Source of the DNA: Thermococcus sp. SY098
GTDB lineage: Archaea > Methanobacteriota_B > Thermococci > Thermococcales > Thermococcaceae
Length of the DNA: 64,000 nucleotides
Direction of reading: 5' to 3'
NCBI RefSeq assembly: GCF_035621495.1
Contig: NZ_CP141821.1
Span: 1,330,760 to 1,394,759 of the forward strand
The notes under the pieces: generated by a model
The model's input: only the letters and a program-made list of their open reading frames with translations
Told to the model about the DNA's origin: nothing
Databases searched by the model: none
Position numbers and translations under genes: made by a program
Shown here: positions 3,777-33,672 of the stretch, piece after piece
Layout of the letters: the number at the start of each line of letters is the position of its first letter
Position numbering within the stretch: the stretch's first letter is position 1

Positions 3777-5735
3777 ATGAAATTCACAACCCTCAAAATT
3801 AACCTGAAAACCAAAGAAATCAGCATGAATGAAATACAGCAGGAAGGAATCTACGGAATAATTGACTATGCCCTCTATCTTCATGATGAAGTCTATAAAA
3901 CATATGAACTCGATCCCTACGACCCAAAAAATGTTACCGTCTTTGGGAAAGGGCCATTCGCAGGATCAGTTTTGCCTGGAGCCCACAGACTTGTATTCAT
4001 CTTCAGATCACCACTCTATGGAGCCCTCTTCCCATCAACAATGGGCGGGGCAGCATACATTTTTCAGAGAGTTGGTGTGGACTTCGTAGTTCTTGAAGGA
4101 AAAAGAGAGAAACCAACCATTATCCTGTTGCAGGGTGATGGAAAAAACGTTAGCGTTGAGCTTCATGAGATGGAGCTTGAAAAGCTCTTACAAATCTGGC
4201 GTAGCTATAAAGGGGAAGAGGGAGTCTATGCACTAACTGAATACCTTATTGAAAACTTCAAAGACAAATTTGACGAAGAATTTAGAATCGCCTGTGTAGG
4301 ACCGGCATCTCTTAACACCAACTTTGGAGCAATATTCTCACAGACTTTAAAAAATGGAAAGCGTGTAGAGGGAAGCGAAGACTGGGCAGCTCGCGGCGGT
4401 CCTGGAAGTGTTCTGCTCAGGGCACATAATGTTGTGGCAATAATCTTTGGAGGAAAAGCCAAGAAAAAGTTCCCAGGTGAGAACATAGGAGATATAAAAG
4501 TTGCAAGACCCATAGTTGAAGGAGTTCATAAAAAGCCCATGTTTCAAATTATCGGAGAAAAAACAACCAAGTATCGCTATAATCCAAAGCTGAAAACCGG
4601 CGGAACGTTTGGAGGAAACTATCCAGCTGAAGGGGACTTTGTCCCAATTTTAAACTGGCAGATGCCCTACATTAACAAAGAGGATAGGATTAAAATCCAC
4701 GAGAACATAATGAAGCACTACTGGGAGCCTTTCAACAAGGAAGCAATAGAAACCAAAAACTGGACAACCTGTGGAGAACCGTGTCCAGTTGTATGTAAGA
4801 AGTTCCGCAGAGGCCACCACGTTGAATATGAGCCGTATGAAGCCAATGGACCATTAAGCGGGAGCATTTACATCTATGCAAGCGATATAAGTGTCCATGC
4901 GGTCGATGCTATGGGTTTTGATGCCATCGAGTTTGGTGGCTTAGCCTCATGGGTGCTTGAGCTTGTCTATAGGGGGCTACTCAAGCCAGAGGAAGTGGGA
5001 TTAAGCGGCAAACCAGACTTTACAAAAGATGATCTGATTCTAAAGCCCGTTGAAGCCAGTGAAAAGAACGCAAGACTTGTTGCAGAATTGGCTCATAAGG
5101 TAGCTTTTGCAGAAACAGAAATTGCCAAAATCCTCGGCTTAGGAAAGAGGAAAGCAAGTGCAATACTTGATGAGAAGTTCAAAGATAGGCTGAAATATGG
5201 GGAAAGCTTCAAGGACTATGCAGTCTTTACACCTCTTGGCGAAGATGGAGAAATCTGCCCGACAATGTATTGGGCTATAGGAAATTACATTCCACTGCCA
5301 ATCCAAGGGAGGTACTGGACATTTTATCAGTTTGGCGTTTTCCTTGAGCCAGAAGAGTTAGCAAGCAAAATAGTGGCAAGTGCCCTGTATGAGTTCTGGT
5401 ATGACAATGTTGGATGGTGCAGATTCCACAGGGGATGGATGAAGCCAGTTCTTAAAGCTCTCTTCCTCGAAGCCTATGGCGAGAATGTTGACATGGAGGA
5501 ACACGCAAAGAAAGTCATAAGAAAGCTCATAAACTATGCAAAGAAAGCTGGTTATGAGCCTGTATTCTGGGACAGCATGAGGGTCGTTGATTTGGTTGCC
5601 GCTGGTGCTGAAGAGTTTGGAAACGAAAAGTGGGCAGAAAAGTTCAAAGAAGACAAAGTTGGCACTGCAAAAGAATACCTCAAGAGAGTGCTTGACACTT
5701 ACAGTGAAATTTTGGGAGTTGATTGGACGATTTAA
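3777..5735 (+). CDS. gor: Glyceraldehyde-3-phosphate:ferredoxin oxidoreductase (tungsten)
   Basis: GAPOR oxidises glyceraldehyde-3-phosphate directly to 3-phosphoglycerate and reduces ferredoxin, replacing GAPDH and phosphoglycerate kinase in the modified glycolysis of Thermococcales. The 652-residue sequence aligns in memory along its length with Pyrococcus GOR: GPFAGSVLPGAHRLVF and STMGGAAYIF in the tungstopterin-binding N-terminal part, EDWAARGGPGSVLLRAHNVV, and the [4Fe-4S] ligands C332, C336 and C340 (CGEPCPVVC) with C548 (GWCRFHRGW) as the probable fourth. ATG at 3777 follows GGAGGGATAAG. It lies directly after fbp with an oppositely acting regulatory site, giving a glycolysis/gluconeogenesis switch pair. 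Confidence 0.96.
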   Translation: MKFTTLKINLKTKEISMNEIQQEGIYGIIDYALYLHDEVYKTYELDPYDPKNVTVFGKGPFAGSVLPGAHRLVFIFRSPLYGALFPSTMGGAAYIFQRVGVDFVVLEGKREKPTIILLQGDGKNVSVELHEMELEKLLQIWRSYKGEEGVYALTEYLIENFKDKFDEEFRIACVGPASLNTNFGAIFSQTLKNGKRVEGSEDWAARGGPGSVLLRAHNVVAIIFGGKAKKKFPGENIGDIKVARPIVEGVHKKPMFQIIGEKTTKYRYNPKLKTGGTFGGNYPAEGDFVPILNWQMPYINKEDRIKIHENIMKHYWEPFNKEAIETKNWTTCGEPCPVVCKKFRRGHHVEYEPYEANGPLSGSIYIYASDISVHAVDAMGFDAIEFGGLASWVLELVYRGLLKPEEVGLSGKPDFTKDDLILKPVEASEKNARLVAELAHKVAFAETEIAKILGLGKRKASAILDEKFKDRLKYGESFKDYAVFTPLGEDGEICPTMYWAIGNYIPLPIQGRYWTFYQFGVFLEPEELASKIVASALYEFWYDNVGWCRFHRGWMKPVLKALFLEAYGENVDMEEHAKKVIRKLINYAKKAGYEPVFWDSMRVVDLVAAGAEEFGNEKWAEKFKEDKVGTAKEYLKRVLDTYSEILGVDWTI

Positions 5736-26516: not shown

Positions 26517-28550
26517 TCATTCACACCACCTGCTGAAGTCAACAATGGTCTTTAACCTTGCAGTTTCAATATCAATTATCGGAACTCTCGCTGGAGTTGG
26601 AACGATATTGACCATCTTCTGGAACTCAGTCTGAGCTTGCCAAGTGGCCGAGTTAATCAAAAACACACCGCGATAGATCTGGTAATCAAGAACATGAACA
26701 TGTCCCATCTGCACCAAATCCGGTACCCCCTCGATGACAAGCAGATCTTCCGGGTCTGGTGCAATTGGAACTTTTCCGCCAAATGTAGGGGCGACGTGCC
26801 TGAGCTTTAGCAGTTCAATCATCGGCTCAACAGGGCGGAGATGACTCTTACCGGGAATGTAGCTCACAACATCCTCAATGCCCCTCCCATGGACAATTAA
26901 AAAGTCCCTGCCGTGGAGGTTGATAACGGCTGGATTGCTTATGATCACTGCATTTTTTAGCTCATAGAGGGGTTTTGCATATTCTCTGTAGAATTCGGGC
27001 TGAGGTAAAGCAGTTCTTGCAGCATCGTGATTGCCTGGACCAATGAACATGGTTATATGATCCGGAACATTTGCCAAGAGGTTTGCCAAAGCTTCATACT
27101 GGTCAAATATATCGGGAATTGCAAGCTCATTGTACTGACCCGGATAGATACCAATACCATCAACAACATCGCCAGCAATTATCATGTACTTTATTCTGCT
27201 CACAATTTCCTCTTCTTCTCTGCTTTCAACGTTGCCATTGAGCCATTCAAGGAACTTCATGAAAGCTTTTTCACAGAATTTTGTGCTTCCAACGTGGATA
27301 TCGCTGATCAAAACAGCATAAACCTTTTCCTCAAGGGGAGGTTTTTCTCGCTTGTAGAGTGGAACATCAGGCAAATAAAGCTTGCTTGCAAATAAGATTC
27401 CGCGTTTTGAATAATATCCTCTAAAAGCGACGACGCTGTCTGGAAGGACTTCAAATGCTTTCGTATAATCTTCGTTATCACGTCCCAAGAAAACCTTAAC
27501 AATGCCAGTCATATCCTCAACTTCAAAGATAAATCCCTTTTTAGTTTCCCTCTTTGAGTTGACAAGGCCGATGATCGTAACTTCCCCATCGGGATTAATG
27601 TAGCTAAGCTTTCCAATATCTATTACCCCACTAACCTCCGGATTTTCCCGCAGAATTCTTCTCAATTTCTTTAATCTACTTTTGAAGTAGTTCTCATAGA
27701 CCTTGACTACTATCTCTCCTTCTTTACCATTTGCATTCTTAGCTTTTGGGGGTTTTAGCTTAACATTTCTTACGTCGAATTTAATCTCATACTCTGCCTT
27801 TATCCTCTTTGCAACAAACTCAAAGCTTTCATTTGGTTCAACCTTAAAATCCTCATAAATCGAATATGCCCTCTTTTCTTCAGCTGAAATCTCTTCCTCT
27901 TCCAGTGGAACCAAGACTCCATAGTCCCCATAAACTGCCTTCATTTTGACACCATTTTCTTCATCACCGACACCATTGTACTCTTCAAGAGAAGGAGCTC
28001 CAGTGGAAATGAAACTCTCCTCCCCCCCAATTGTGGATTCTTCTTCCACTATTTCCATAGAGATGGTTTCAGAAACCATATTTTCCATGGGTTCTCCAGT
28101 GGAAATAGAGGTTCCATTTTCTGATGATAGTTCTTGGATATCATGGGTTATTTCAGCCTGATCAGATGCTTGAGGGGGAATTTCTACCATTTTGCCAAGT
28201 TTTGCCGTCTTTTCACCACTCACAGCACTCTGAATTGAGACTTCTTTTGAGCCCCTGGGGATGCCAATTTCCATTGGAACCTCAGGTATAGAGGGAAGGG
28301 TTTCTGCTTTAGTTTCCACTGAAGCTTTCGGAATGTATTTTGCAAAATTCTCCAGTGGAGATAACAACCCCTTAGATTCAAGAAACTCTTTGGCAAGCCT
28401 TTCGTCAATTACAAATGTATTTTTCGTTCGTGCAAATTTTATGAGCTCCGCCAAAGTAAAGTTCTTCTTATAATATTCTGAAAGAATAAAGTAAGCGGGT
28501 GGAGTGATGAGATAGCGATTAGAAAGCAGGTCCTTCACCAGCCCATTCAT
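26517..28550 (-). CDS. polB: DNA polymerase D small subunit DP1 (3'-5' exonuclease)
   Basis: 677 residues. N-terminal helical domain (1-70), a long acidic low-complexity linker (about 75-260), an OB domain (about 265-400) and a C-terminal calcineurin-like phosphodiesterase domain with metal ligands in ISDIHVGS, AGDVVDGIG, GPGNHD, VHGRG and MGHVH. The phosphodiesterase gives Pol D its proofreading activity and binds DP2. ATG at 28550 overlaps the cdc6 TGA by 1 nt (TGATG). The linker coding sequence carries several mini-ORB dyads, which read as S-T-G or P-L-E in the protein. Confidence 0.97.
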   Translation of the reverse strand: MNGLVKDLLSNRYLITPPAYFILSEYYKKNFTLAELIKFARTKNTFVIDERLAKEFLESKGLLSPLENFAKYIPKASVETKAETLPSIPEVPMEIGIPRGSKEVSIQSAVSGEKTAKLGKMVEIPPQASDQAEITHDIQELSSENGTSISTGEPMENMVSETISMEIVEEESTIGGEESFISTGAPSLEEYNGVGDEENGVKMKAVYGDYGVLVPLEEEEISAEEKRAYSIYEDFKVEPNESFEFVAKRIKAEYEIKFDVRNVKLKPPKAKNANGKEGEIVVKVYENYFKSRLKKLRRILRENPEVSGVIDIGKLSYINPDGEVTIIGLVNSKRETKKGFIFEVEDMTGIVKVFLGRDNEDYTKAFEVLPDSVVAFRGYYSKRGILFASKLYLPDVPLYKREKPPLEEKVYAVLISDIHVGSTKFCEKAFMKFLEWLNGNVESREEEEIVSRIKYMIIAGDVVDGIGIYPGQYNELAIPDIFDQYEALANLLANVPDHITMFIGPGNHDAARTALPQPEFYREYAKPLYELKNAVIISNPAVINLHGRDFLIVHGRGIEDVVSYIPGKSHLRPVEPMIELLKLRHVAPTFGGKVPIAPDPEDLLVIEGVPDLVQMGHVHVLDYQIYRGVFLINSATWQAQTEFQKMVNIVPTPARVPIIDIETARLKTIVDFSRWCE
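27900..27911. repeat. mini-ORB in polB coding sequence
   Basis: TTCCAGTGGAAC, the Thermococcales ORB dyad core without a G-string. Confidence 0.55.
27998..28010. repeat. mini-ORB in polB coding sequence
   Basis: CTCCAGTGGAAAT, ORB dyad core. Confidence 0.6.
28094..28106. repeat. mini-ORB in polB coding sequence
   Basis: CTCCAGTGGAAAT, identical over 13 nt to the copy at 27998. Confidence 0.6.
28350..28360. repeat. mini-ORB in polB coding sequence
   Basis: CTCCAGTGGAG, a perfect dyad about the central base. Confidence 0.55.
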
Positions 28551-29815
28551 CAAAACAACCTCCTCTGCCGAGCAATGCTTACAGTGAGGAGAGGCTGAAG
28601 GGAATAATCAAAGCGATAGATGTTCTTAACTTTATATGGAGTGACGTTTAGTCTTATTTCTTTTGTCCGCCCATATCTCCCCTTGCTGACCACTTTAGCA
28701 TTGATGATGCCTAACATGTCGAGCTCATTTATTAGATCACTGACCCTTCTCTGGGTTAAGGGCTCAATATCCATGTAATCACAGAGCTCCTTATACACAG
28801 CATAGACATCACCGGTGTTTGCTGGTAATTCTCCATTTTCATCAAGAAGAACTATGGCATAAAGAAGAATTTTTGAGTGTAGTGGGAGAGTCTTAATAAC
28901 TTCTTCCATGGTGTCCTGCTCAATCTTCTCCTGAGCCTTCCATACATGCTTTTCAGTAACTTTTGAAGCCCCTTCCCTCTCAGCAATTTCGCCACTCACT
29001 CTAAGCAAATCCAAAGCTCTCCTCGCATCCCCGTGTTCTCTTGCTGCTAAAGCTGCACAGAGAGGAACAACAGCTTCATCAAGGACATCTGGATAAAATG
29101 CCTCTTGGGCTCTCTGCATCAATATATCCCTAAGCTGGTTTGCATCATATGGGGGAAAAACAACCTCCTCCTCGCTTAGGCTCGAAAGAACCCTTGGATC
29201 AAGGTAGTCCTTAAATTTCAGATCATTTGAAATACCAACAATGCTGACTTTTGCATTTTTTAACTCACTGTTTATTCTGGTCAGCGAATATAAAACATCA
29301 TCTCCACTTTTTTTGATGAGCTTATCAATCTCATCAAGAACTATTATAACAAATCTCTCCTTTGCATCGATAATTTGCTTTAGCTTTGCGTACACCTCAT
29401 CTGTTGGCCATCCAACCAATGGAACCTCAAAACCACTTTCATGCTTGAAATGATTAACTATGTTTGCAAGAACCCGATACTGGGTATCGACAATCTCACA
29501 GTTGAGATATATAACGTCCACAGGAACGTTATACTTGCGAGATATTCTCTTTAGTTCTTCAGTTACAAATTTTACGGTAACTGTTTTACCAGTGCCTGTT
29601 TTCCCATAGACAAAAACATTGGAGGGTGTTTCTCCCCTCAACACCGGAACCAGTATATGTGCCAATGCCTCTATCTGTTCCCTTCTGTGCGGCAGTTCTT
29701 TTGGGGTATAGCTATGTCTAAGGACTTCTTTATTTTTGAAAATCTTTTTTGCATTCAAATATTTTTCAAAAATCGAATCAAGATACGTCTGTTCATTTTC
29801 CCTTCTTTTTTCCAT
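28550..29815 (-). CDS. cdc6: Orc1/Cdc6 replication initiator
   Basis: 421 residues. It binds ORB elements at the origin and is thought to load the MCM helicase. Walker A is GKTGTGKT (71-78), Walker B is VIIVLDEID (about 156-164), sensor 1 is in VSIVGISND, and arginine-rich sensor 2 HGDARRALDLLR. A C-terminal winged helix (about 325-421) provides dyad DNA recognition. It is the first gene of the operon with polB, the R-M genes and polC. The start is preceded by GGGAG. Its own promoter carries an ORB dyad at the probable transcription start. Confidence 0.97.
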   Translation of the reverse strand: MEKRRENEQTYLDSIFEKYLNAKKIFKNKEVLRHSYTPKELPHRREQIEALAHILVPVLRGETPSNVFVYGKTGTGKTVTVKFVTEELKRISRKYNVPVDVIYLNCEIVDTQYRVLANIVNHFKHESGFEVPLVGWPTDEVYAKLKQIIDAKERFVIIVLDEIDKLIKKSGDDVLYSLTRINSELKNAKVSIVGISNDLKFKDYLDPRVLSSLSEEEVVFPPYDANQLRDILMQRAQEAFYPDVLDEAVVPLCAALAAREHGDARRALDLLRVSGEIAEREGASKVTEKHVWKAQEKIEQDTMEEVIKTLPLHSKILLYAIVLLDENGELPANTGDVYAVYKELCDYMDIEPLTQRRVSDLINELDMLGIINAKVVSKGRYGRTKEIRLNVTPYKVKNIYRFDYSLQPLLTVSIARQRRLF

Positions 29816-30106: not shown

Positions 30107-30721
30107 TCAGATATAGCCAATATCCATCCCTTTCTTTTTAGATATGCCTTGAGATCTGAGTATCTCATCAATAAACTTCTCTGCTTCTTCTTTTGACATC
30201 CCGACTTTGATAACCAAGAACTTAATTAAATCATCCCTTGTTGCACCACGTTGGATTCTGTCAATAAGCATCAGGACTATTCTTTCAAAAACAGCTTGAG
30301 CAAAGTCTTCTTCCACTTTAAGTGCTCTTACAAGTTCATTTATTCCAATGAGTAAAGCAGTCAGAGCATCGTTAAACTCTGCTTTCCCAAGGGTTTTTCT
30401 GTCAAGATCAACCCTAAGGATAATTTCATCATTAATGCCACTTAGCGTGAATTTCAATAAATTTATTTTGTCATTTAGGACAAGCATTGCATGATATATC
30501 TTTAACCGTTCCTCCAAAGGAAGTGCCGTTGTTTCCAAGCCAAATGGCACCATCAAATGAACGAACTCCTCACTGAACAGTATATTGAGGACAAAAGGCA
30601 TTTTTGGGTATTCTGCAATATAAAAATGCTCTTCAATTTTCTTAACATTCCACGGCAGATCCACAATGTCCTGAGCATCATCTCTTCCTTCCCTCAGCCA
30701 CTGAATGACTTGTTCTTCCAC
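30107..30721 (-). CDS. Origin-adjacent protein of unknown function
   Basis: 204 residues, soluble, no cysteines. Residues about 20-135 form an alpha-beta unit (FYIAEYPKMPFVLNILFSE, LNDKINLLKFTLSG, NDEIILRVDLDRKTL) whose strand/helix pattern recalls the YbjN/type III chaperone-like fold; this is only inference. Residues 155-195 are helical (RGATRDDLIKFLVIKVGMS, KEEAEKFIDEIL). The start is GTG at 30721, and it lies inside a mini-ORB (30716-30728). The gene lies between cdc6 and the candidate oriC core. I do not recognise a function. Confidence 0.78.
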   Translation of the reverse strand: MEEQVIQWLREGRDDAQDIVDLPWNVKKIEEHFYIAEYPKMPFVLNILFSEEFVHLMVPFGLETTALPLEERLKIYHAMLVLNDKINLLKFTLSGINDEIILRVDLDRKTLGKAEFNDALTALLIGINELVRALKVEEDFAQAVFERIVLMLIDRIQRGATRDDLIKFLVIKVGMSKEEAEKFIDEILRSQGISKKKGMDIGYI

Positions 30722-30871: not shown

Positions 30872-30891
30872 AATGAACATTACTGTTCATT
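30872..30891. repeat. TGAACA inverted repeat 1 in oriC
   Basis: Perfect 8-bp arms AATGAACA and TGTTCATT separated by TTAC. It is unrelated to the ORB sequence. Confidence 0.7.
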
Positions 30892-30975
30892 AAAACTTGT
30901 GCATTAGTGAAAATATGCGGACATCATGTTAAATAAAAGTTTTTAACAATCATTTAAGAAATTAACAGAATATAT

Positions 30976-31005
30976 CCCCCAGGGAGTTGTATTTCCAGTG
31001 GAGAC
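30976..31005 (-). repeat. Full ORB (leftward orientation)
   Basis: On the minus strand TCCACTGGAAAT is followed by ACAACTCCCT and the G-string GGGGG. The order dyad, AACTC, G-string is the same as in the plus-strand ORB at 31256. Confidence 0.82.
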
Positions 31006-31087
31006 GGGCGCAACACCTCTGTCACATTTATTGTTTTGGTGATAAACACTCCCACTTTCTATACGCATCATAGTATATAAATTTGTC

Positions 31088-31104
31088 TATGAACATTGTT
31101 CATA
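31088..31104. repeat. TGAACA inverted repeat 2 in oriC
   Basis: Perfect 8-bp arms TATGAACA and TGTTCATA around a single T. It lies in the A+T-rich core between the two full ORBs. Confidence 0.7.
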
Positions 31105-31255
31105 AATTATGATAAAAATTAGTACATTAATGTGAACATGTTACCAATGCTTAAAAATAACATAGACACATGATCAATGTATTATGTAAAAACCTTTTTT
31201 AGAATTTGTTGACATTGTATGTATCCGTTGTGACTGCTGAACTCCCAAAAGTGAG

Positions 31256-31282
31256 TTCCAGTGGAAATAAAACTCTGGGGGG
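31256..31282 (+). repeat. Full ORB (rightward orientation)
   Basis: TTCCAGTGGAAAT followed by AAAACTCT and GGGGGG. It is inverted relative to the ORB at 30976-31005, with dyads facing the A+T-rich core. Confidence 0.85.
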
Positions 31283-31313
31283 TCATTTCGATAACCATCT
31301 TAAGAGACTTTTA

Positions 31314-31326
31314 TTTCCACTGGAAC
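31314..31326. repeat. mini-ORB
   Basis: TTTCCACTGGAAC, 32 bp right of the full ORB. Confidence 0.6.
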
Positions 31327-31382
31327 TACTTTGGCATTCAATGTTCAATGATATTCACTGTTCATCAATACCTGACTAAAAG

Positions 31383-31391
31383 CTTATAAAT
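31383..31391 (+). promoter_or_regulatory. TATA element of the K+ channel gene
   Basis: CTTATAAAT about 25 bp before the cluster of ATG codons, implying a leaderless or nearly leaderless transcript. Confidence 0.5.
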
Positions 31392-31407
31392 AAGATACTA
31401 ATCAAAA

Positions 31408-31418
31408 ATGATGAACAT
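31408..31418 (+). other. Alternative starts of the K+ channel gene
   Basis: ATG codons occur in frame at 31408, 31411 and 31417 with no Shine-Dalgarno. The TATA position would put transcription start near 31413, so 31417 (MIPVPLVRHL) is possible as the real start. Confidence 0.35.
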
Positions 31419-32418
31419 GATACCCGTACCCCTGGTTAGACACCTAATGAAACTTAGAATTAAATTAAGAAGAAACAAAGTTATTGTTCTTGCCGCTGTA
31501 GTGTTTTTACTGGCACTGATGTTTTCTATAATGTTCATGTATTTTGAAAAGGTTGGATTCTTTACGGCATTTTACTGGGCAATAATAACCATGGCGACCA
31601 TTGGTTATGGAGATGTAACCCCCAGCACATATGGCGGCAGGATTGTTGCAATAGTTGCCGCAATTGCAGGTATTTCAACTTTTACTGCTCTGGTTTCAAT
31701 TCTTGCCGAGTATTTTATTGAATCATCAATGAGGAGGATGATGGGTATGCACAAGATAAAGTACAAGGGACATTATCTTATTATTGGTCAAGGAGGAAGC
31801 GTTCTAAGCTGTTTGGATGAGCTCAAAAGAGCCATTTCCACGGGACAAGCTGAAGATAACCCAATTGTTGTTGTCTTACCGAGTGAGGAAGAAAAAAAGA
31901 GGCTTCCTTTGGAGGATGTTGAAGTTCTTGTGGGTGATCCAACGAATAAAGATACTTTACAAAGGGCAAGAGTTGCAGAAGCATCTTATGTTCTTTTAAC
32001 ACTTGAAGATGACTCAAAATCCGTCTTTTTGACTCTGATGGTTAAGCAGATGTCTAACGCCAAAGTGTTTGTGGAAGCCCTTAAGCGGGAAAGCTTCTCC
32101 CTATTAAAGCAAGCCGGGGCTGATAGGGTAATATTGAGTAGAACTTTAGCGGGTCGGTTACTGGCAAGTTCAATTTTCGAGCCAGAAGTTGTTGATGTAA
32201 TTGATGATTTGACCACTTCCACAGGAAATTATGATGTTACAGTATTGACTTTCCCAGAACTTAGTGGGCTTAAATTTGGTGAGGCGTGGCAAATATTGTA
32301 TGAAAAAGGATATTTGCCAATCGGGTATGTTGATGATGGCATCAAACTTATGCCTCCTCTGGATTCTCAGCTTCCACAAAACCCCAAAGTAATAGTGATC
32401 ACAAGGGTTTCTTCATAG
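31408..32418 (+). CDS. Two-TM potassium channel with RCK (TrkA-N) domain
   Basis: 336 residues. TM1 is about residues 27-47 (IVLAAVVFLLALMFSIMFMY), then a pore helix and the selectivity filter TIGYGD (about 67-72), TM2 about 82-102, and a cytoplasmic RCK domain from about 118 (HYLIIGQGGSVLSCLDEL) to the C-terminus. The plan is that of MthK-like ligand-gated K+ channels; the Rossmann glycine motif of the RCK domain is degenerate, so the ligand is uncertain. It is the first gene to the right of the origin and its 3' part carries a mini-ORB (32217). Confidence 0.92.
   Translation: MMNMIPVPLVRHLMKLRIKLRRNKVIVLAAVVFLLALMFSIMFMYFEKVGFFTAFYWAIITMATIGYGDVTPSTYGGRIVAIVAAIAGISTFTALVSILAEYFIESSMRRMMGMHKIKYKGHYLIIGQGGSVLSCLDELKRAISTGQAEDNPIVVVLPSEEEKKRLPLEDVEVLVGDPTNKDTLQRARVAEASYVLLTLEDDSKSVFLTLMVKQMSNAKVFVEALKRESFSLLKQAGADRVILSRTLAGRLLASSIFEPEVVDVIDDLTTSTGNYDVTVLTFPELSGLKFGEAWQILYEKGYLPIGYVDDGIKLMPPLDSQLPQNPKVIVITRVSS
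32217..32229. repeat. mini-ORB inside the K+ channel gene
   Basis: TTCCACAGGAAAT, identical over 13 nt to the copy at 30716. Confidence 0.5.
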
Positions 32419-32558: not shown

Positions 32559-32604
32559 TCTTACATCTTACACCTACCAGTGATCATGCTTATGGGTGGT
32601 AATG

Positions 32605-33672
32605 ATGGCGAGAAAGAAAAAGGTTGAGACTGTTGACGATGAAATAAAAGAGCTTGAAGAGTTTGAGGAGCTTTCAATTGATGCTGAAGTTGCCAAAGCT
32701 TCAAAGAAAAAGAAAAAAGAAATCAAAACGCTCGAAGACTTGCCCGGCGTTGGTCCTGCAACTGCTGAAAAGCTTAGAGAAGCGGGATATGATAGCTTAG
32801 AAGCTATTGCCGTTGCATCACCAATAGAGCTCAAAGAAATTGCTGGAATAAGTGAAGGCGCTGCTTTAAAGATAATTCAGGCTGCAAGAGAAGCAGCTAA
32901 TATCGGAACATTCATAAGGGCTGATGAATACTTCCAACGGAGACAGACAATAGGTAGAATTTCCACTGGAAGCAAATCTCTTGACAAGCTACTTGGTGGG
33001 GGAATAGAGACCCAAGCAATCACCGAAGTTTTTGGAGAGTTTGGCAGTGGAAAGACCCAGATAGCTCATACTTTAGCTGTCATGGTTCAATTGCCACCTG
33101 AAGAAGGCGGTTTAAATGGAAGCGTCATCTGGATTGACACTGAGAACACTTTCAGACCAGAAAGAATAAGGCAGATTGCTGAAAATAGGGGTTTGGATCC
33201 AGATGAGGTTCTCAAGAATATATATGTCGCAAGGGCATACAATACAAACCATCAAATGCTTCTTGTTGAAAAAGCAGAGGAGATAATCAAAGAGAAGCTC
33301 AACACTGATAGACCAGTCAAGCTTATGGTTGTTGACTCCTTGACAAGTCATTTCCGTTCTGAATACGTTGGTAGGGGGGCTTTAGCAGAGAGACAGCAAA
33401 AGTTAGGGAAGCATTTGGCTGATCTACACCGATTGGCAAACTTATATGATATTGCAATATTTGTTACAAACCAAGTTCAGGCAAGGCCAGATGCATTCTT
33501 TGGCGACCCAACGAGACCAATTGGTGGACACATCTTGGCGCACTCAGCCACACTTAGAATATACCTCAGAAAAGGCAAAGCTGGAAAGAGAATTGCAAGG
33601 CTCATTGATTCACCCCATCTACCAGAAGGGGAAGCAGCCTTCAGAATCACAGATAAAGGAATTGAGGATTAA
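32605..33672 (+). CDS. radA: DNA repair and recombination protein RadA
   Basis: Archaeal RecA/Rad51-family strand-exchange ATPase, 355 residues. A charged N-terminal tail is followed by a helix-hairpin-helix domain ([17 protein letters not shown], about 46-62), the subunit-interaction FIRA motif (103-106), Walker A GEFGSGKT (144-151), Walker [11 protein letters not shown], and L1/L2 region with [17 protein letters not shown]. No intein is present. ATG at 32605 has GGGTGGT 4 nt upstream; ATG at 32602 would add one Met. It leads a rightward repair pair with nucS. Confidence 0.97.
32959..32973. repeat. mini-ORB-like dyad in radA
   Basis: ATTTCCACTGGAAGC, encoding the conserved ISTGS of RadA, so the match may be a by-product of protein constraint. 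Confidence 0.35.

Follow-up and report, generated by a model that had tools for sequence, protein, structure and literature searches.

Organization of the Origin Region

The window analyzed here, a stretch of 64,000 nucleotides from Thermococcus sp. SY098 (NZ_CP141821.1, positions 1,330,760 to 1,394,759 of the forward strand), carries the genes cdc6 and p204, an intergenic replication origin, and the genes kch and radA, in that order. The cumulative GC skew of the profiled stretch reaches its minimum at about 31000-31500. Archaeal origins are usually described as a set of initiator sites (ORBs) together with an AT-rich unwinding region, and at this locus two long ORBs of opposite orientation flank an interval of 250 bp, with mini-ORBs located farther out. 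The genes and the initiator sites, in coordinates of the window, are as follows.

28550-29815, minus strand: cdc6, in the origin region of the window
30107-30721, minus strand: p204, an unnamed gene without a Pfam family
30976-31004, minus strand: left long ORB, G-string leftward, inverted partner of the right ORB
31254-31283, plus strand: right long ORB, G-string rightward, matching the long-ORB pattern
31375-31390, plus strand: promoter of kch itself, the top promoter match of the region at 11.7 bits, 18 bp ahead of the ORF
31408-32418, plus strand: kch, the K+ channel gene, ORF start at 31408
32596-33672, plus strand: radA, intact in the window

p204 is linked to the origin throughout the family, even where cdc6 has been relocated, and structure prediction (mean pLDDT 89) gives it a fold like that of type III secretion chaperones and YbjN rather than that of a helix-turn-helix protein. 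In many relatives (e.g., L097, L100, and L105) radA gives two matches about 1.4 kb apart, an intein-like split.

TGAACA Sites in the Origin and Their Density

A previous sequence-only reading of this DNA had reported eight half-sites of the hexamer TGAACA/TGTTCA, arranged in part as two dyads, one at 30872-30891 (AATGAACAttacTGTTCATT, 4-bp spacer) and the other at 31088-31104 (TATGAACATTGTTCATA, 1-bp spacer). A listing of the sites recovered both dyads and all eight half-sites, at 30874(+), 30884(-), 31090(+), 31097(-), 31133(+), 31342(-), 31359(-), and 31412(+). As had been claimed, these sites are distinct from the ORBs, their sequence being unlike the ORB/mini-ORB core TTCCANNGGAA. They had also been placed in the putative unwinding core and the K+ channel promoter; the main dyad does lie between the long ORBs, but the half-site at 31412 falls within the kch ORF. 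Together with one degenerate site, they are described as follows.

30874-30889, no strand: second dyad, TGAACAttacTGTTCA with a 4-bp spacer, to the left of both long ORBs
31090-31102, no strand: main dyad, TGAACATTGTTCA with a 1-bp spacer, forming the element's conserved core
31133-31138, plus strand: half-site TGAACA, in a few origins only (+40 bin matched in 8 of 56)
31163-31168, plus strand: degenerate half-site TAGACA, corresponding to TGAACA at about +73 in other origins
31342-31347, minus strand: half-site TGTTCA, with genus-level conservation only, also in G087 and G091
31359-31364, minus strand: half-site TGTTCA, upstream of the kch promoter, also in G091
31412-31417, plus strand: TGAACA inside the kch ORF, probably outside the element

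Background density was taken from 800 kb sampled from the same genome, in which 487 matches were found (0.33 per 550 bp on average). The densest 546-bp stretch of this sample held no more than 4, compared with 8 at the origin. The density in ordinary intergenic DNA, a comparison that the sequence-only reading had named as able to refute it, was far lower than at the origin (0.43 per 687 bp in about 82 kb of unmasked intergenic background, against 7 in the 687-bp interval of the origin). Since the window as a whole shows no enrichment of the hexamer (46 found and 47.6 expected), the cluster of half-sites is local. TGAACA had originally been picked post hoc, but in an unbiased ranking of all hexamers over 60 orthologous origins it comes first after the ORB core words, with 261 occurrences seen and 50.7 expected. 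The background density and this ranking both uphold the earlier statement that the hexamer clusters beyond chance.

Conservation across Related Origins

The cdc6/origin regions of relatives were collected together with dyad loci of genus g5 and others, and were aligned on the dyad. Related origins carry the motif at the corresponding position, so that the other refutation named in the sequence-only reading, absence from such origins, did not apply either. The exact 1-bp-spaced dyad is present in 39 of 60 origins and in five of six genera (g1 6/6, g2 2/3, g4 20/32, g5 10/10, g6 1/1, g3 0/8), where g3 is presumably Pyrococcus and the other genera are presumably Thermococcus-like. Even in g3, TGAACA survives as the left half-site in seven of eight origins, with its position and the TATA-like block in front of it unchanged, and in the clade of G018, G022, G025, and G044 the left half-site is kept in three of four origins and the right half-site has been lost. 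In most of 56 origins, the long ORBs start about 112 bp to the left of the dyad and 164-167 bp to its right. No other 13-bp window between them is as well conserved as the dyad (1.58 bits against a background of 0.38), whose identity between genera is 92-100%, compared with 35-43% for the right flank.

Two further positions are strongly conserved along with the dyad at 31090. The site at about -218 (-205 to -223), which corresponds to the 30872 dyad of the SY098 window, carries TGAACA or TGTTCA in 39 of 56 origins, with both halves in 4, and the site at about +73 (+71 to +84), degenerate in the SY098 genome, carries an exact TGAACA in 25 of 56. The half-sites at 31133, 31342, and 31359 are common to a few close relatives only. 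To speak of a second family of inverted repeats makes the sites seem more uniform than they are: one dyad is strictly conserved, the other is for the most part represented by single half-sites, and several of the reported half-sites have only a local distribution.

That the sites cluster by chance in AT-rich DNA could be argued from the post hoc choice of the hexamer and from its ordinary frequency across the whole window. For the main dyad this explanation is refuted by the background density, the unbiased hexamer ranking, and the positional conservation across genera, although chance is a possible origin for 31133, 31342, 31359, and 31412. The motif cluster is real, conserved, and origin-specific.

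A Promoter-like Block Abutting the Dyad

The 16 bp directly to the left of the dyad are also conserved and read leftward approximately as TAGAWA-NN-TWTAWATA, the layout of the BRE-TATA motif of the genome, for which a matrix was learned from 709 upstream regions of the same genome. Two features are placed here on the minus strand.

31074-31089, minus strand: BRE-TATA-like block TAGACAAATTTATATA, abutting the dyad, 6.0 bits, p about 3e-3
31044-31053, minus strand: conserved block AAACACTCCC (minus strand GGGAGTGTTT), at the expected leftward transcription start

In 58 of 60 origins the block scores higher leftward than rightward (means 4.3 vs. -4.3, four of the 60 being misanchored), and a rightward promoter was accordingly rejected. 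When the column order was permuted, one permutation being applied jointly to 56 origins, 2 of 2000 permutations reached the observed mean. The score is moderate in SY098, at 6.0 bits, and lower in genus g5, at 2.5-3.1. A purine block, GGGAG, is the second best conserved between the ORBs, and the spacer joining it to the TATA block is unconserved in sequence and nearly fixed in length. In T. kodakarensis, TATA boxes lie at a median of 23 bp upstream of the start (PMC4247193), and at that distance the expected start falls on the conserved block at 31053-31044. Judged from this sequence layout, it is slightly more likely than not that the inter-ORB interval harbors a leftward promoter whose BRE has the palindrome next to it on the upstream side. 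The gene downstream of such a leftward transcript varies, being either p204 or cdc6, and is about 330 bp away in SY098; cdc6 has, by eye, a TATA box of its own near its start. A search for structured RNA gave no credible Rfam match, and no conserved RNA was seen.

Independence from the Neighboring Genes

The dyad is exact in eight origins that lack an adjacent kch (G087, G088, G089, G093, G015, G035, G055, and G074), and in G075 (L137) and G078 (L140), where kch is reduced to fragments, it is intact beside the remnant. In genus g5, cdc6 has been relocated and the block of p204, origin, and radA is intact and contains the dyad. Since the dyad is retained without kch and with cdc6 moved, it belongs to the origin and not to the channel. 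p204 is absent in G015 and G035 and degraded in G089, and all three have the exact dyad. p204 was rejected as the dyad binder because these three genomes keep the dyad without an intact copy, and its predicted fold is of the type III chaperone/YbjN kind.

The sequence-only reading had proposed that the sites may bind a putative origin factor or a regulator. The origin factor gains support from these data, and another regulatory role, at a leftward origin promoter, is suggested by sequence. A regulator of the K+ channel gains none as far as the dyads are concerned: the half-sites at 31342 and 31359 do lie just upstream of the kch promoter, as an operator of the channel gene might, but the dyads persist in the origins without adjacent kch and beside its remnants, and kch has a strong promoter of its own, so that for the dyads this explanation is largely refuted and deserves hardly any credence.

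In the g5 genomes (L116-L124 and L136-L146), cdc6 is apart from the origin, and p204, the ORB/dyad region, and radA are together. With cdc6 relocated and the origin block next to radA, the origin of a g5 genome should be sought beside radA rather than beside cdc6.

Candidate Binding Protein

The position and conservation of the dyad make it very probable that it is the site of an origin-linked protein. The exact 13-mer dyad occurs once in the SY098 genome, and its seven copies with a single mismatch lie within ORFs or at an ORF start. With one exact copy and near-copies so placed, there is no sign of a regulon, and a genome-wide regulon was rejected on the same ground.

According to Yokoyama and colleagues, the site of an FFRP (Lrp/AsnC) protein reportedly consists, as described in 2009, of a 5-bp arm, a 3-bp A/T center, and a 5-bp arm. 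The form TGAAC-AWT-GTTCA, a 13-bp palindrome with an A/T center, is found in 38 of the 39 exact dyads. FL11 of Pyrococcus likewise binds a 13-bp palindrome, and archaeal activators of the Lrp family sit a few bp upstream of the BRE (PMC2995911), which is where the dyad is found, directly upstream of the BRE-TATA block defined by sequence match. Against this assignment, Lrp targets typically comprise several degenerate sites clustered in phase with the helix (PMC2995911), whereas the origin has sites at -218, 0, and +73 only. The SY098 genome contains 14 AsnC-domain matches, which are candidate binders. Prediction of an FFRP-type binder is tentative, and assignment to the Lrp/AsnC family is offered as a lead, not as a result.

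A Proposed Composite Element within the Origin and Alternative Explanations

We propose that, besides the ORBs, Thermococcaceae origins have a second element made up of the TGAACA sites. Its core would be composite, consisting of the 13-bp palindrome, the leftward BRE-TATA block, and the GGGAG block at the expected start, all between the long ORBs, where helix opening is expected. The occupant of the palindrome, just upstream of the BRE, would be a helix-turn-helix protein binding as a homodimer, perhaps a member of the Lrp/AsnC (FFRP) family, and the bound protein would control transcription initiation, or the occupancy of TBP/TFB together with local melting, within the origin. As an outcome, origin use would be tuned, the natural inputs being nutrient state or growth phase. 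We give this promoter-operator reading as a whole a probability of about 0.5, its protein, family, transcript, and effect on replication all being deduced from the sequence. Weighing against it are the moderate promoter score and its drop in g5, the changing downstream gene, the loss of the right half-site in Pyrococcus and in the G018 clade, the lack of a phased cluster, and the normal growth of T. kodakarensis lacking the origin (PMC5663688). A direct effect on origin use is possible, at rather less than even odds. That a dimeric, FFRP-type regulator at TGAACAWTGTTCA switches leftward transcription in the unwinding region, with the transcription or its open complex licensing opening by nutrient or growth state, seems unlikely; if true, an archaeal chromosomal origin would be activated by transcription, which might go some way toward explaining why the marker-frequency peak of these origins is small or missing in log phase and clear in stationary phase. 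In T. kodakarensis the origin peak is seen in stationary and not in log phase (PMC11005403), and cells without the origin grow normally and survive stationary phase for a shorter time (PMC5663688). An element tuning origin use by growth state would fit these data.

The main rival explanation is architectural. The dyad-bound protein would act directly on replication, through helicase loading or escape or through DNA bending, as UBP does at ucm, and the TATA-like block would merely be AT-rich melting DNA. The location of the dyad between the long ORBs and its near uniqueness in the genome speak for this, as does the case of Sulfolobus, whose origin needs a second motif located between two of its ORBs (PMC12141716). 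However, the base order of the adjoining block follows BRE-TATA in a single direction, more closely than AT content would explain, and conservation extends to the block at the expected start, which leaves a direct role of this kind rather improbable. The composite and the architectural explanation both predict an extra origin protein.

The leftward promoter layout is equally what one would see if the dyad were simply an operator for the left-hand gene (p204, or cdc6 where p204 is missing), having no direct role in origin opening, and one of these two is indeed the left gene in the origins examined. Against such a role in expression only, the element is retained whichever gene lies downstream, the transcript would need a leader of 330-600 nt with an ORB in it, cdc6 has, by eye, the TATA box near its start, and the T. 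kodakarensis origin deletion reportedly keeps the TK1901 and TK1900 promoters (PMC5663688); we regard it as distinctly unlikely. It is very improbable that the dyad serves as a second site for a core replication protein (Cdc6, MCM, GINS, or primase) instead of a dedicated regulator. An origin-specific, nearly unique dyad would be more in keeping with such a protein than with a regulator that has a regulon, but the sequence is unrelated to the ORB/mini-ORB core, and the right half is missing in most Pyrococcus origins. The core replication machinery of Pyrococcus is the same as that of its relatives.

Comparison with Known Systems

The composite element resembles several known systems in part. 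Like the ORB/mini-ORB sites of Thermococcales, the TGAACA sites are repeated palindromic sites at fixed places of the same intergenic region, but the core sequences differ and the dyad has no G-string. In bacteria, transcription near the lambda origin and the binding of IHF and Fis at E. coli oriC also provide cases in which an accessory protein or nearby transcription tunes opening, although the proteins and the machinery are unrelated and the Thermococcaceae promoter is deduced from its sequence. The operators of FFRPs such as FL11, Ptr2, and LysM share the 13-bp palindrome with an A/T center immediately upstream of the BRE; unlike them, the origin dyad has neither a regulon of near-copies nor a phased degenerate cluster, and its putative promoter sits inside a replication origin.

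The nearest precedent is ucm of Sulfolobus with its protein UBP (PMC12141716), a conserved non-ORB motif between two ORBs that, like the dyad, is read as the site of a non-initiator protein. ucm is positioned between ORB2 and ORB3, and firing depends on it (PMC12141716). It is an 11-bp sequence bound by a UBP monomer and has hundreds of genomic copies, whereas the Thermococcaceae motif is an unrelated 13-bp palindrome with about one; the published ucm oligonucleotide (PMC12141716) shares no palindrome resembling TGAACANTGTTCA. UBP has been described as restricted to Desulfurococcales and Sulfolobales, and the same study raises the question of analogous origin proteins elsewhere in the archaea (PMC12141716). 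Accessory origin motifs bound by a dedicated protein are thus known from Sulfolobus, and the Thermococcaceae motif differs in its sequence, its apparent promoter, and its lineage. Text searches for the hexamer and of origin papers found no description of the motif, and an earlier mention in subscription literature is possible.

A second motif that is family-wide and fixed in position implies an extra initiation factor in Thermococcales. In P. abyssi, Orc1/Cdc6 is on the origin in all growth phases and MCM only during growth (PMC5333045), a pattern that suggests missing regulators. Marker-frequency analysis has been done in T. kodakarensis, T. barophilus, and P. furiosus, and origin deletions exist in the first two, so that the motif is directly testable.

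Copies of the Dyad outside the Origin

About 11 exact dyads lie outside origins in 94 genomes, against a chance estimate of about 16. As the total is no more than chance, these copies are treated as a lead, and mobile-element dyads were rejected as proof of a host factor on the same count, the plasmid pTN3 having none. They are often found in intergenic DNA of apparent integrated elements, as near position 4000 in each of L148, L149, and L150 (G018, G021, and G048), L154 (G064), L155 (G093), and L141 (G078). The first three of these represent one shared place in a pTN3-like element, and G093 has two exact non-origin dyads 86 bp apart. When plasmid and phage DNA was searched using the origin or element loci as queries, pTN3 was the only useful match. 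In pTN3 (L196), TGAACA itself occurs 22 times where 10.2 are expected, and no shuffle reached as high a number. Positions 3994-4308 of the plasmid, in the 5′ part of its MCM gene, contain six TGAACA in 315 bp together with an 18-nt perfect inverted repeat, and might be the origin of the element. In L152 (G073), near 4002, an exact dyad lies in a spacer of a CRISPR-like repeat array, and the source of that spacer may therefore carry the motif.
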